Source: Bradyrhizobium genosp. L
Lineage (GTDB): Bacteria > Pseudomonadota > Alphaproteobacteria > Rhizobiales > Xanthobacteraceae
Reading direction: 5' to 3'
Assembly (NCBI RefSeq): GCF_015624485.1
Contig: NZ_CP061378.1
Location: 1,302,001 to 1,366,000 of the forward strand
Length of the DNA: 64,000 bases
The notes under the pieces were generated by a model that was not told the origin of the DNA, did not search any database, and was given only the letters and a program-made list of their open reading frames with translations. The translations under genes and the position numbers were made by a program. Shown piece by piece: positions 2,789 to 7,079 of the stretch. Position 1 is the stretch's first letter. Every line of letters starts with the position of its first letter.

Positions 2789-4396
2789 TTAGTGCGCGCC
2801 GCCGCCGGCGAGCGCGCCGGGCTTCTTCAAGAACAGTCCCGCGATCAGCGCCACGATCAGGGCGGCACCGAGCAGGTAGAAGGTGTCGCTGAAGGCGAGG
2901 ATGAAGGACTGCTTCTGCACGATCTTGCCGATCGCGACGAAGGCGCGGCTGGTGGCATCGAGCTGGTTGGCGACGCCGTGGCTCATGAAATACTGGGTCA
3001 GCTGGTCGATCCGGGTGCGGGTCGCCTGATCGAACAGCGAGATCTGCTCGCTCAGCACGTTGGAGTGATACTGTTCGCGCTTGGTCAGCAGCGTTTGCAG
3101 GATGGCGATGCCGACGGCGCCGCCGAGATTGCGCATCATGTTGAACAGGCCGGAGGCGGAGCCCGCATTCTCCGGCTCGATGCCCGCCGTCGCGACCGCG
3201 GACAGCGGCGCCATCACCAGTGCTTGACCGATGGCGCGGACGATGTTGGGCCAGAACAGCTGGTCGGTGGCGTAGTCGTTGGTCATGAAGATGTTCATGA
3301 AGTTGGAGCCGGCGAACAGCGCAAAGCCTGCGCCAATCAGGATCCGGGCATCGAAGCGCTGCATCAGCCGCGGCACCAGCGGGATCAGCAACAGCTGCGG
3401 CAATCCGGTCCACGCCAGCACCATGCCGATCTGCTCGGCATTGTAGCCCTGGATGCGCGACAGATACTGCGGCAGGATGAACACCGAGCCGTACAGCGCG
3501 ACGCCGAGCAGGAAATTCGCCAGCATGCCGAAGCCGAAATTGCGCCGCACCAGCAGGCGCAGATTGAGCAGCGGCTTCTCCGTGGTGAGCTCGATCACCA
3601 GGAAGGCGGTCAGCGCCACCGCCGCGATGACGGACAGGCGGACGATGAAGTCCGAGCCGAACCAGTCGTCCTTGTTGCCCTCTTCGAGCACGGTCTGCAG
3701 CGCGGCAAGCCCGATCGCCATGGTGACGATGCCGAACCAGTCGCCCTGGCGGAGCAGCGAGAGCTTCATCGGGCTCGACTCCAGCGAGAAGTACAGCATG
3801 CCGATCATGATCGCGCCGGGCACCAGGTTGACATAGAAGATGTACTGCCAGCCCCAGTTCTCGGTGAGATAGCCGCCGATGGTCGGGCCGATCGCCGGCG
3901 CGAACGTCGCCGAGATCGCAAACAGCGCCAGCCCGATCGGCTGCTTCGCCCGCGGCAGCAGCGTGATGATCAGCGTGAATGCCAGCGGGATCAGCACGCC
4001 GCCGCAGAACCCCTGCACGGCGCGCAACACAATCATCTGCGGCAGGTCCTGCGCCAGCGCGCAGGCCGCCGAGAACACCAGGAACAGGACGGCATTGACG
4101 AGCAGATATTTGCGCACCGAGAACACCTGGGCGAGCCAGCCGCTCAGTGGGATCACGATGATCTCGGCGATCAGATACGAGGTCGAGATCCAGCCGCCGT
4201 CATCGATGCCGGCCCCGATTGCGCCCTGCACGTCGGCAAGCGAGGCGTTGACGATCTGGATGTTGAGCACCGCCATGAACGCCCCGAGATTGGCGCCGAT
4301 CACCGCGATCCAGGTCTTGGCGGAGACCGTGGGCGCGACTGGCGTTGCGGGCGCATTGAGGGCGGCAGGGTTGGCTGTAGGCTGTAGTGCGGTCAT
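2789..4396 (-). CDS. emrB: DHA2-family MFS multidrug efflux permease (EmrB-like)
   Basis: A 535-residue major-facilitator protein of the 14-TM DHA2 drug:H+ antiporter family, the inner-membrane pump of an EmrAB-type tripartite exporter. The first helix reads IAVIGANLGAFMAVLNIQIV, followed by the conserved DGGWISTSYLIAEIIVIPLSGWL segment, and the sequence alternates hydrophobic blocks throughout. Together with the HlyD-like gene upstream it forms an export pair. An operator-like element at 4446-4493 duplicates the one in front of the divergent emrA/lysR pair, so this gene probably has its own regulated promoter in addition to read-through. Confidence 0.9.
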   Translation of the reverse strand: MTALQPTANPAALNAPATPVAPTVSAKTWIAVIGANLGAFMAVLNIQIVNASLADVQGAIGAGIDDGGWISTSYLIAEIIVIPLSGWLAQVFSVRKYLLVNAVLFLVFSAACALAQDLPQMIVLRAVQGFCGGVLIPLAFTLIITLLPRAKQPIGLALFAISATFAPAIGPTIGGYLTENWGWQYIFYVNLVPGAIMIGMLYFSLESSPMKLSLLRQGDWFGIVTMAIGLAALQTVLEEGNKDDWFGSDFIVRLSVIAAVALTAFLVIELTTEKPLLNLRLLVRRNFGFGMLANFLLGVALYGSVFILPQYLSRIQGYNAEQIGMVLAWTGLPQLLLIPLVPRLMQRFDARILIGAGFALFAGSNFMNIFMTNDYATDQLFWPNIVRAIGQALVMAPLSAVATAGIEPENAGSASGLFNMMRNLGGAVGIAILQTLLTKREQYHSNVLSEQISLFDQATRTRIDQLTQYFMSHGVANQLDATSRAFVAIGKIVQKQSFILAFSDTFYLLGAALIVALIAGLFLKKPGALAGGGAH

Positions 4397-4445
4397 CGGA
4401 ATTCTCTGCGTTGGTGCAGAGAGGATGCATTACGAAGCCGGCTTC

Positions 4446-4493
4446 GATAATCGGGGAAAGAGCGGAAGGATTGTTGGGCGATGATTGATAATC
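4446..4493. promoter_or_regulatory. Probable LysR operator upstream of emrB
   Basis: GATAATC occurs at 4446-4452 and again at 4487-4493, exactly 41 bp apart. The intervening sequence (GGAAAGAGCGGAAGGATT core) aligns with that between the two GATAATC motifs at 5935-5982, giving 32 matches in 48 positions by hand. It ends 50 bp or more before the emrB start on the strand used by emrB. I infer binding by the LysR protein at 6011-6922. Confidence 0.65.
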
Positions 4494-4551
4494 GTTGCCC
4501 GATGGTGAGGCTCGGGTACCTCGTCCCGCTCAGGCACACCGTATCCAAAGC

Positions 4552-4674
4552 GTCGTCCCGGCGAAGGCCGGGACCCATAATCACAAATCACGGTTGCTGC
4601 GCGCAGCTCGACCGACGAGGCGCGTTTCACAACTTCTGCCGCGGAGTATGGGTCCCGGCCTTCGCCGGGACGAC
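4552..4674. repeat. Composite palindromic element, family A copy 2
   Basis: A 29-bp self-complementary arm beginning GTCGTCCCGGCGAAGGCCGG is mirrored by GGTCCCGGCCTTCGCCGGGA plus CGAC at the far end, with about 65 bp between. It sits in the 306-bp gap between the emrA-like and emrB-like genes, downstream of emrA, next to the emrB operator. Compared with copy 3 at 17404, the interior shares the CACAAAT and TGCGGAGTATGGG blocks. Confidence 0.8.
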
Positions 4675-4702
4675 GCTGGTTTAGGGAGCAGGCGCCGCAG
4701 CG

Positions 4703-5851
4703 CTATCCCCCATTCGCCCGCGCCGCCGACGCCACGCGTCGCTTCTCGTCGCCCTCCGCCATCACCGTCGCCTTGGTATTGACGGTCGGCAGCGCCGACA
4801 TGCCCGGGCGCAGCAAGCCGGCAAGCTTGTGGTCGTCGAGCACGATCTTCACCGGCACGCGCTGCACGATCTTGGTGAAGTTGCCGGTGGCGTTGTCGGG
4901 CGGCAGCAGCGCGAATTCGAGGCCGCTGGCCGGTGACAGGCTGTCGACATGGCCTTTCAGCGTGGTGTTGCGGAAACTGTCGACGGTGAGCTCGACCGGC
5001 TGGCCGTTGCGTACATGGGTGAGCTGGGTTTCCTTGAAATTGGCGACCACATAGACCGCATCGAGCGGCACCACCGCCATCAGCTGGGTGCCGGCCTGCA
5101 CATACTGGCCGACCCGCAGCGTGCGGGCGCCCACGGTGCCGTCCACAGGCGCGGTGATCTCGGTGTAGGACAGGTTCAGCTCGGCCTGCTGCGCGACTGC
5201 GCGGGCATGATCGAGCTGTGCTGTGGCCTGGGCGCGCTGCGTGCTCAGCACATCGAGCTTGCGTTCGGCCGCTACAGCTGCGGATTTCGCGCCCTCCAGC
5301 TGCGCGGTGTTGGCGCGCAACGCCGCATCGGTCTGCTGCGCGCGCTGGATGGTGCCGGAGCCGGACTTCATCAGCCCGTCGTAGCGGGCCTGTTCCTCCT
5401 GCGCGAATTTCAGATTGGCCTCGGCGGCGTCGACGTCGGCCTTGCTCTGCGCGATCACCGGCTGCTGCAGTGCGAGCTGCGCATCGAGGTTGCGCACCGA
5501 GGCTGTTGCGGCATCGACATCCGCCTTGGCCTGGCTGAGCGCGGTGCGGTAATCGCGGTCGTCGATCTGCGCCAGCACCTGCCCGGCCTTCACCGGCTGG
5601 TTGTCGGTCACCAGCACCCGCGCGATATAGCCCGATACTTTCGGGGCGATGATCGTGGAGTCCGCCTTCACATAGGCGTCGTCGGTCGATTCCAGGTAGC
5701 GGCCGGTGGTGAAATAGTCGTAGCCGAAGTCGCCGGCGACGGCGATACCGAGCGCCACGGCAAGGGCGAGGGCCGCCCGCTTGATCGCCCTGCGGGATGG
5801 GCGCAGGCTGGTTTTGGCAGTTTCCTCAGTGACATAGGTTGCCGTCGACAT
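4703..5851 (-). CDS. emrA: HlyD-family membrane fusion protein (EmrA-like)
   Basis: A 382-residue periplasmic adaptor with one N-terminal membrane anchor (about residues 25-45, RAALALAVALGIAVAGDFGY), a biotinyl-lipoyl-like half (STDDAYVKADSTIIAPKVSG), a long alanine- and glutamine-rich coiled coil from about 90 to 220, then the second lipoyl half (APVDGTVGARTLRVGQYV) and a beta-barrel region. It would link the EmrB-like pump to an outer-membrane channel not encoded here. It is divergent from a LysR gene across a 159-bp region with paired GATAATC motifs. It is separated from emrB by a repeat-bearing 306-bp gap, unusual for a gene pair that is normally contiguous. Confidence 0.9.
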   Translation of the reverse strand: MSTATYVTEETAKTSLRPSRRAIKRAALALAVALGIAVAGDFGYDYFTTGRYLESTDDAYVKADSTIIAPKVSGYIARVLVTDNQPVKAGQVLAQIDDRDYRTALSQAKADVDAATASVRNLDAQLALQQPVIAQSKADVDAAEANLKFAQEEQARYDGLMKSGSGTIQRAQQTDAALRANTAQLEGAKSAAVAAERKLDVLSTQRAQATAQLDHARAVAQQAELNLSYTEITAPVDGTVGARTLRVGQYVQAGTQLMAVVPLDAVYVVANFKETQLTHVRNGQPVELTVDSFRNTTLKGHVDSLSPASGLEFALLPPDNATGNFTKIVQRVPVKIVLDDHKLAGLLRPGMSALPTVNTKATVMAEGDEKRRVASAARANGG

Positions 5852-5934
5852 CGCATCCTCCTGGTCGAGCGCTTCGCGTCCTTCCAGAAAGGGCGCCAGT
5901 TACGGCCCCTTTGATGCAATATCCTCCCCGCTGT

Positions 5935-5982
5935 GATAATCCCGGAAAAACTGGAAGCATTATCAAGCCAGCGCCGATAATC
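5935..5982. promoter_or_regulatory. Probable LysR operator between emrA and lysR
   Basis: GATAATC at 5935-5941 and 5976-5982 are spaced 41 bp, with an inverted ATTATCA at 5959-5965 forming a dyad TGATAAT-N18-ATTATCA with the first. It lies 84 bp before the emrA start and 28 bp before the lysR start, a position that suits both activation of emrA and autoregulation. The arrangement recurs at 4446-4493. Confidence 0.7.
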
Positions 5983-6010: not shown

Positions 6011-6922
6011 ATGGATCGCCTGACCAGCCTGACCGCCTTTGTCCGCGTCGTGGACGCCGGAGGCTTTTCCGCGGCCGGCCGCAAGCTCAACATGTCGACC
6101 ACCATGGTCAGCAACCATGTCCAGGCGCTGGAGGATCGGCTTGGCGTGCGGCTGCTCAACCGCACCACGCGCAAGGTCAGCCTGACCGAGGTCGGCCAGG
6201 TCTATTACGACCGCTCAGTCCAGATCCTGGCCGATATCGAGCAGGCCGACGACATCGCCGGCGCCCTGCAATCGGTGCCGCGCGGCACGCTGCGGATCTA
6301 CACCAACACCCATATCGTCCAGTTCCTGTCGCCCGCGGTCGCCGAGTTCCTGGCGACCTATCCCGAGGTCAAGGTCGACCTCACCATCGGCGAGCGTAAT
6401 GTCGATCTGATCGACGAGAATTACGATCTCGCGGTGCGGATGATCCCGCCGCCCGACTCCAGCCTGATCGTGCGCAACATCGCCACCTGGCGCCACGTGC
6501 TGTGCTGCTCGCACGGCTATATCGAACAGCACGGCAAACCCGAGCAACTCGCCGATCTGCAGGCGCGCAATTGCGTTCAGCACGTCAATTATCCCTTCCG
6601 CGACGAGTGGCGCTTCACCGACCGCAAGGGCATGCCGGCCTCGGTGCGGGTCTCCGGCAATCTGATCTCCAACAGCGGCGAGACGCTGCGGCTCGCAGCG
6701 CTGGCCGGCGTCGGTGTCTGGCTGGCCGCAGGGTTCCTCATCCGCGACGATCTGGAATCCGGCGCGCTGGTTCGCCTGCTGCCGGAATACCGGCCGGTCG
6801 AGTTGACGATGAACGCGGTCTATCCGCACCGCCATCATCTGTCGGCCAAGGTGCGCACCTTCATCGACCTCCTGGTGCGCCATGCGACCGAGCAGCAGAA
6901 GCTGATCAATCCGTATTCGTGA
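6011..6922 (+). CDS. LysR-family transcriptional regulator (divergent from emrAB)
   Basis: A 303-residue LysR protein. The winged helix-turn-helix occupies residues 1-60 (MDRLTSLTAFVRVVDAGGFS then STTMVSNHVQALEDRLGVRL), and a periplasmic-binding-protein-like effector domain follows from about residue 90. It resembles the group that controls adjacent export or oxidoreductase genes. ATG 6011 is the first start in frame after the operator. It is divergent from the EmrA-like gene and is the obvious candidate regulator of the whole efflux operon. The inducer is unknown. Confidence 0.92.
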   Translation: MDRLTSLTAFVRVVDAGGFSAAGRKLNMSTTMVSNHVQALEDRLGVRLLNRTTRKVSLTEVGQVYYDRSVQILADIEQADDIAGALQSVPRGTLRIYTNTHIVQFLSPAVAEFLATYPEVKVDLTIGERNVDLIDENYDLAVRMIPPPDSSLIVRNIATWRHVLCCSHGYIEQHGKPEQLADLQARNCVQHVNYPFRDEWRFTDRKGMPASVRVSGNLISNSGETLRLAALAGVGVWLAAGFLIRDDLESGALVRLLPEYRPVELTMNAVYPHRHHLSAKVRTFIDLLVRHATEQQKLINPYS

Positions 6923-6957
6923 TGATGGTTGAGAGAGCCGCGTGCTCAATCCATCAC

Positions 6958-7060
6958 CGTCATCCTGAGGAGCCGCGCAGCGGCGTCTCGAAGGATCGAC
7001 GGCCACCGCCCGGGCCGTGCATCCTTCGAGGCTCGCAAGAGCTCGCACCTCAGGATGACG
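6958..7060. repeat. Dispersed palindromic element, family C
   Basis: CGTCATCCTGAGGAGCCGCG at the left end is mirrored by CGCACCTCAGGATGACG at the right end, with an inner TCGAAGGATCGA/CATCCTTCGAGG pair. It lies in the convergent gap between the LysR gene and the NHL-repeat gene. Degraded fragments of the same arm are visible near 991-1030 and 15243-15262. Confidence 0.75.
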
Positions 7061-7079
7061 GGATTGGCAGCAGCACTGC

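Follow-up and report, generated by a model that had tools for sequence, protein, structure and literature searches.

Exactly spaced operator copies before both pump genes of an emrAB-type locus in Bradyrhizobium and their probable LysR-type regulator

We analysed a stretch of 64,000 nucleotides of the Bradyrhizobium genosp. L genome (hereafter the window), in which two copies of one 48-bp element, each with two GATAATC half-sites exactly 41 bp apart and a middle half-site between them, stand before the emrA-like and the emrB-like gene of an efflux locus. Judged from comparison of sequences, the LysR-type protein encoded next to these genes very probably acts directly through both copies, whatever the sign of its action. 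An efflux regulator for which no description was found gains in this way a concrete and testable DNA site, which is present in 87 of the 117 genomes of the genus that we surveyed.

Results

The locus and its two elements

The window was taken from the single contig of 7.40 Mb that makes up the host genome. The gene order on its minus strand is an emrA-like membrane-fusion (periplasmic adaptor) gene (4703-5851, 382 aa), a gap of 306 bp, an emrB-like DHA2 MFS permease gene (2789-4396, 535 aa) and, directly 3' of the latter, a CMD/AhpD-like gene (2301-2759; Pfam CMD, 76.4 bits). The EmrB-like product scores 395.5 bits against TIGR00711 (efflux_EmrB, cutoff 230.2), and the EmrA-like product has Pfam HlyD domains and scores 263.5 bits against TIGR00998 (EmrA/EmrK), below the cutoff of 390.8. 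The lysR gene (6011-6922, plus strand, 303 aa) is divergent from emrA, its putatively regulated unit, and a divergent upstream lysR ortholog was found in 69 of the best 80 of 558 confirmed EmrA loci in relatives. Its product carries both domains of a LysR-type transcriptional regulator (LTTR) above the gathering scores, the N-terminal HTH_1 (PF00126, 71.8 bits) and the C-terminal LysR_substrate (PF03466, 139.2 bits). We rejected assignment to the YafC, TtdR and AaeR equivalogs, all of which stay below their cutoffs: 227.4 against 470 bits for YafC, the best NCBIfam match, 167.9 against 398 for TtdR and 161.3 against 425 for AaeR. Of the 65 lysR-linked loci in which at least 700 bp remain beyond emrB, 60 have an ortholog of the CMD-like gene no more than 400 bp downstream of emrB, which makes emrB-cmd a natural second transcription unit; the CMD/AhpD-like gene is probably co-transcribed with emrB. 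By eye, a long inverted repeat (a REP-like palindrome, 4551-4579 and 4647-4676) lies in the emrA-emrB gap between the emrA stop codon and the emrB operator, and another, different palindromic repeat is found 3' of lysR at about 6955-7062.

Both elements are read on the plus strand. The operator of the lysR-emrA gap (5935-5982) consists of half-sites GATAATC (5935-5941), ATTATCA (5959-5965) and GATAATC (5976-5982), and that of the emrA-emrB gap (4446-4493) of GATAATC (4446-4452), ATTGTT (4470-4475) and GATAATC (4487-4493). An earlier sequence-only reading had pointed out the GATAATC pairs starting at 4446/4487 and 5935/5976, and we confirmed both spacings of 41 bp, the agreement of the two 48-bp stretches at 32 of 48 positions with a common GGAAA, GGAAG and ATT core, and, by gene coordinates, the placement of one copy before emrB and of the other between emrA and the divergent lysR. 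Its description as a pair holds for the two GATAATC half-sites of each copy; it had overlooked the middle half-site, a possible weak fourth one and a promoter register common to both copies, and we replace the plain pair with three half-sites and a possible fourth.

The GATAATC heptamer occurs eight times in the window, compared with a mean of 3.39 in 100 dinucleotide shuffles, two of which reached eight, so the count of the heptamer is by itself weak evidence. Ungapped comparison of the two gaps over 48 bp gave a best agreement of 33 of 48 positions, in the same register and shifted 22 bp towards the genes; the maximum in 1000 pairs of first-order Markov sequences was 29, and at least 33 was reached by 2 of 987 pairs of real window segments (34 and 38). 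The exact pattern GATAATC-N34-GATAATC occurs three times in the 7.40-Mb genome, two of the occurrences being the emr sites, and the third, at 5350169, is absent from the matches with up to 3 mismatches once the middle half-site is required. With the full pattern GATAATC-N17-ATNRTC-N11-GATAATC, the two emr sites are the only matches genome-wide at up to 2 mismatches, five more appear at exactly 3 mismatches (one being the reverse reading of the emrA site), and a reversed control pattern had no match in the 7.40-Mb genome. These genome-wide counts and the conservation in relatives, which places the elements well beyond chance, rule out a chance origin.

Conservation of the elements at related loci

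Relatives were represented by the best 80 of the 558 confirmed EmrA loci from public genomes, nearly all of Bradyrhizobium. A lysR-emrA gap was kept when the LysR match started at residue 1 or 2 with more than 55% identity, and gaps were measured to the first aligned EmrA residue; this gave 69 gaps plus that of the window, and 11 loci with no qualifying lysR were set aside. Alignment of such gaps, which the sequence-only reading had proposed as a check, bears out the lysR-emrA side: when spacings of 38-44 bp were allowed, the pair was found at exactly 41 bp in all 70 gaps from these best 80 of 558 loci, with 0-2 mismatches in the pair and a third half-site ATTATC at +24 with 0-1 mismatch. While the 41-bp spacing stays constant, total gap length ranges from 131 to 159 bp among the 42 gaps that do not exceed 160 bp.

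On the emrA-emrB side the same check came out in part as expected. A site with up to 4 mismatches is present in 47 of 80 gaps (again the best 80 of 558 loci), and among the 69 lysR-linked gaps it is kept in 47 of 53 with a length of at least 100 bp, in 0 of 3 at 40-99 bp and in 0 of 13 below 40 bp. The absence from these shortest gaps means that direct control of emrB would depend on the lineage. Among the nine other lysR-linked gaps of at least 40 bp, apparent damaged remains of the site were recognised on reading in the emrB gaps of L023, L064, L066, L070 and L079, and no trace of it was found in L020, L022, L024 and L083, which are lysR-linked and have emrB gaps above 90 bp.

Loci where lysR is missing provide a further comparison. 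For ten emrAB paralogs whose locus contains no lysR match, a site was found neither in the emrB gap nor in the 400 bp preceding emrA (0 of 10); in the latter stretch the best candidates have 8 or 9 mismatches. At locus L013, the 5 kb preceding emrA contain no lysR (best match, 30% identity), the 400 bp nearest to emrA lack an operator, and the emrB operator has slipped to a spacing of 40 bp; this single case looks like decay following loss of the regulator.

Architecture of the operator and predicted promoters

With the first base of GATAATC numbered 1, the consensus of the emrA-proximal sites consists of GATAATC at 1-7, GGAAG at 19-23, ATTATCC at 25-31 and GGATAATC at 41-48; at most emrB sites the middle block reads ATCRTCC and the last block TGATAATC. 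ATTATCC and GGATAAT of this consensus form a 23-bp dyad, ATTATCC-N9-GGATAAT. Its counterpart in the window, ATTATCA-N9-CGATAAT at 5959-5981, is the proposed high-affinity regulatory site (RBS), with its centre at about -66 from the predicted emrA start. A possible second dyad, AATATCC-N9-TGATAAT at 5918-5940, whose centre lies 41 bp from that of the first, is tentatively proposed as the activation site (ABS) on the basis of a reverse-strand match to the motif at genome positions 1307917-1307964 with 3 mismatches; its left arm is weak.

This left arm corresponds to the possible weak fourth half-site (5918-5924), which is fainter at 4429-4435. When matches to ATTATCC were scored over all offsets at the emrB sites, the strongest additional match, trivial ones aside, fell at offset -16 with 4.26 of 7, against a mean of 1.59 over the offsets; at the emrA sites offset -16 scored 3.84 and offset -23, which overlaps the -10 hexamer, 4.01 (mean 1.69), and at 19 lysR-proximal sites offset -16 fell outside the top seven. 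Since -16 is exactly one 41-bp step from position 25, each pump promoter may contain a pair of equal dyads separated by that same distance.

A promoter is predicted in the same register in both gaps, on the minus strand. For emrA, the -10 hexamer CATCAA (5911-5916) is separated by 17 bp from the -35 hexamer TTATCA (5934-5939), and for emrB, CATCCT (4422-4427) is separated by 17 bp from TTATCG (4445-4450). We picked this register by eye before counting and placed the predicted start about 7 bp after the -10 hexamer. Among the emrA-proximal sites, the -35 hexamer is TTATCR in 68 of 68 and the -10 hexamer is CATCTT, GATAGT or CATCTA in 58 of 68; TTATCG is present in 40 and CATCCT in 32 of the 47 emrB sites, with the same 17-bp gap and register.

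A GATTATC half-site lies over the predicted -35 hexamer in both pump promoters, and the centre of the dyad is near -66 of the predicted start; the conserved, dyad-symmetric block extends about 77 bp upstream of that start. The core of the dyad is T-N13-A and thus differs from T-N11-A, the textbook core of LTTR operators, from which other LTTR sites deviate too. Excerpts of PMC5603801 and PMC4730206 describe LTTRs as tetramers that occupy a strong site near -65 and one or more weaker sites near -35 (and -10). The element, with a dyad centred near -66 and one half-site covering the predicted -35, reads as having the layout of a LysR-type operator.

Two operators are present in 17 of the 70 lysR-emrA gaps, one by emrA and the other by lysR, and in 16 of these 17 the second lies 6-8 bp from the lysR start codon. 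The lysR-proximal consensus also matches CTTGCG-N17-GATAAT, a possible lysR promoter with the distal half-site as its -10 hexamer, an arrangement that would give autorepression. The two operators of long gaps (L042, L045, L049, L050, L053, L063, L064, L068 and others) enclose conserved sequence that includes a direct repeat (GAGCGATTGC..., CGAGCGATTGC) and in which no gene was recognisable. As a separate observation, some species (L019, L077, L080, L081 and others) have a perfect inverted repeat, possibly a terminator or attenuator of emrA, whose loop contains the distal half-site of the emrB operator. We rejected the hairpin as a general feature: arms of at least 7 bp are found in only 11 of 47 sites, and the window has none of at least 5 bp.

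Co-occurrence of the site with the regulator

We surveyed 117 genomes of the genus, scoring a LysR ortholog at E<=1e-100 and a site anywhere in the genome at up to 2 mismatches; the tallies were made by hand from two tables, 16 of the 36 LysR-less genomes being obtained by subtraction. The site is present in all 81 genomes with a LysR ortholog and absent from 30 of the 36 scored as having none, and the control pattern gave no match in any of the 117. Genome G366 is an exception, in which lysR is split over two frames (G366:C1:5818392-5819301), by either a recent frameshift or a sequencing error, and both emr operators are intact. Among the other genomes scored as LysR-less, G306, G316 and G384 have one 2-mismatch match each. 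In G319 (1 mismatch) and G380 (2 mismatches) the site lies beside another LysR-type gene, identified by eye in G319 and by a 35% match in G380, which indicates that the geometry is not private to this regulator. Genome G135 has a third match, at C37:7436. The co-occurrence partly reflects shared ancestry, in that the gene and the gap travel together.

Outside the genus, we used a sample of 20 regions picked from a larger set of matches. Orthologs of other genera near an EmrA-like pump (L084-L090; LysR identity 56-71%) have the site in 7 of 7 cases, and L100 and L101, which proved to be orthologs of the same genus, have both sites. The loci of 11 more distant homologs (L091-L099, L102 and L103; 44-56%) contain no site at up to 3 mismatches; ten of them have no emrA or emrB match, and L096 has a distant pair about 3.6 kb off. 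The segment S[TV]TMVSNH, taken for the recognition helix, is common to the 10 operator-bearing rows that were compared and differs in 10 of the 11 distant homologs. The unexplained exception is L091, which has this segment yet no site at up to 2 mismatches genome-wide.

History of the emrB copy and further sites

We traced the emrB site on a tree of 78 rows built from LysR plus EmrA by a quick method, with the five damaged remains scored as present and L012 left out. It needs 11 gains or losses, compared with an average of 18.0 in 500 shuffles, none of which was that low, and the well-supported branches alone force 8 changes. Its occurrence outside the genus, in L084, L085 and L087 with 3 mismatches each, suggests that the emrB-copy operator is old and that several losses followed, most of them as the gap closed. 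The sister loci L059 and L062 have emrA-emrB gaps of 7 and 121 bp, respectively.

A further site was found in part of the genus. In L139 (4917-5048) a site with up to 2 mismatches precedes a gene next to lexA (named by eye) whose small product, about 67 aa long, starts like a signal peptide, and similar lexA-side sites occur in L140, L141, L144, L145, L146 and L150, with the -35/-10 spacing, by eye, as at the emr genes. This small secreted-protein gene is a candidate further target, and its presence contradicts a private two-target regulon everywhere. In the genome of the window, a protein search did not reveal the small gene (best E 0.058), and the 900 bp that follow lexA no longer carry a site, the best candidate there having 8 mismatches.

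Sites of the same geometry also occur at or near other LysR-type genes (L142 5001-5048, L143 5001-5048, L149 3129-3176, L151 5001-5048 and G380:C1:2513007-2513054), and a wider group of LTTRs may therefore use the 41-bp layout; three of these five are in loci with SDR-like genes, as named by eye. In L088 (6860-8480), where the LysR ortholog is 59% identical, one operator precedes a quinone-oxidoreductase-like gene (by eye) and another precedes a different EmrA-like pump (45% identity to EmrA).

Discussion

The occurrence of an exactly spaced copy before each pump gene, together with the co-occurrence with LysR, very probably means that one regulator controls each pump gene directly. Each operator would be the site for one LTTR tetramer, in which one DNA-binding dimer sits on the dyad ATTATCC-N9-GGATAAT near -66 and the second reaches the GATTATC that covers the predicted -35; this half-site and the distal one are 41 bp, or about four helical turns, apart. 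Each operator would form one unit with a promoter of its own (TTATCR-N17-CATCYT or similar), so that LysR would switch emrA and emrB-cmd separately and in parallel, and the lysR gene itself would be controlled from the copy between emrA and lysR. Most likely, and with somewhat less assurance than direct action as such, LysR would repress the lysR gene and, once it has bound a small molecule, shift off the -35 box and activate the pump genes. The AhpD-like partner gene and the quinone-oxidoreductase-like gene under an operator in L088 hint at an electrophilic or aromatic inducer.

The sequence-only reading had argued from the conserved spacing that one LysR protein controls both genes directly rather than through a single operon promoter. 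The spacing, the co-occurrence and the common register point the same way, and possession of the -35/-10 register of emrA by the emrB copy favours a separate emrB promoter; the proposal is to be narrowed in that the emrB copy, and with it the putative direct control, is restricted to certain lineages.

The main rival keeps the same operators and the same LysR but makes the protein mainly a repressor, which would be bound over the -35 and keep the emrA and emrB promoters off until a ligand releases it. Many regulators of efflux pumps are local repressors, and here the predicted -35 is directly covered by one half-site, and the weak fourth arm extends towards the -10. However, the strong dyad is centred near the predicted -66, the usual position for LTTR activation according to excerpts of PMC5603801 and PMC4730206, and the -10 and -35 hexamers, judged by eye, are poor compared with those of a strong promoter, which points to the need for an activator. 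We consider a mainly repressing LysR unlikely.

It appears less probable still that the emrB copy is an inert relic of promoter duplication, with the emrA copy alone at work and transcription reading through into emrB. The repeated loss of the emrB copy would fit such a relic, as would the middle half-site ATTGTT of the window, which is 2 mismatches from ATTATC, and the 306-bp gap with an inverted repeat that separates the genes; nevertheless, 47 sites survive with the 41-bp spacing and a conserved promoter register, the copy is present with 3 mismatches in other genera (L084, L085 and L087), and its losses accompany the closing of the gap, which would make read-through sufficient. That the repeats are elements of a special sigma factor promoter, or the site of another protein unrelated to LysR, is very improbable: GATTATC does overlap the predicted -35 in both promoters and GATAAT resembles a -10 hexamer, but the conserved, dyad-symmetric block continues upstream to about 77 bp from the predicted start, the site is missing from the lysR-less emrAB paralogs (0 of 10) and from 30 of the 36 LysR-less genomes, and a second copy stands directly before lysR in 17 of 70 gaps.

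Returning to direct control by LysR through both operators, we put forward a broader proposal, tentatively and as something rather less than an even chance. The element may be a movable promoter-operator cassette with four half-sites, a fixed dyad spacing of 41 bp and a T-N13-A core, of which a copy would be placed before each gene under control: lysR, emrA, emrB-cmd, the small secreted-protein gene beside lexA in some species, and the quinone-oxidoreductase-like gene and the different pump in another genus. Copies would be discarded when genes fuse into one transcript, and the geometry would serve a wider LysR-type group. The weakness of the fourth half-site, which did not show up at the lysR-proximal copies, makes this proposal less probable. 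The emrAB loci with one, two or three operators form a natural series, which allows us to ask why adaptor and transporter use separate matching promoters and what the loss of one of them brings about.

Comparison with known systems

We found no paper on this regulator or its operator in open-licence PMC, and papers retrieved with the half-site letters, judged by title and start of the abstract, concerned Fur, Zur and other subjects, none of them this regulator. PMC5002191, by its abstract and outline, treats six gammaproteobacterial LTTRs. The Bradyrhizobium BjG30 locus (bll7019-7021), a genistein-inducible RND pump with TetR-type regulators according to an excerpt of PMC4070704, resembles the present one as an inducible efflux locus of the same genus, inducibility being proposed here; its pump type, its regulators and its different locus, as given in that excerpt, rule out a link. 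LTTR promoters with an RBS and an ABS, such as those of PnpR/PnpM, BenM and DntR in excerpts of PMC5603801 and PMC4730206, would have in common with ours, given the predicted starts, a tetramer (proposed here), a strong site near -65 and a weaker one near -35, and no conserved ABS motif has been identified for LTTRs according to the excerpt of PMC5603801. In contrast, the -35 half-site is here as conserved as the distal one, and the core is T-N13-A instead of T-N11-A; an LTTR site with such a conserved -35 half-site should be useful for testing the sliding-dimer model.

Enterobacterial EmrAB is encoded by a single operon under the MarR-type repressor EmrR. The type of pump genes is common to both systems, whereas the present locus has a LysR-type regulator and separate operators for emrA and emrB. 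MexT of Pseudomonas, acting with mexS and MexEF-OprN, is a LysR-type regulator of an RND pump with a motif of its own. The likeness consists of a LysR-type regulator at an efflux pump and, in L088, operators before a quinone-oxidoreductase-like gene and an EmrA-like pump; the RND pump and the different motif set MexT apart.

Among described systems, the nod box of NodD comes closest; it occurs before several transcription units. In the excerpt of PMC5596368, the nod box is a conserved 47-bp LysR-type operator with palindromic half-sites, ATC-N9-GAT, and Bradyrhizobium nodD1 is described with two copies, one belonging to the nod operon and a nod-box-like one reported to serve autoregulation. 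As far as that excerpt goes, the two systems are alike in being LysR-type operators with a second copy at the regulator, as in our 17 two-operator gaps, and they differ in their regulators and targets and in spacing, ATC-N9-GAT there and ATC-N11-GAT here. The spacing ATC-N11-GAT in the consensus and neighbouring genes that are not nod genes led us to reject identity with the nod box.
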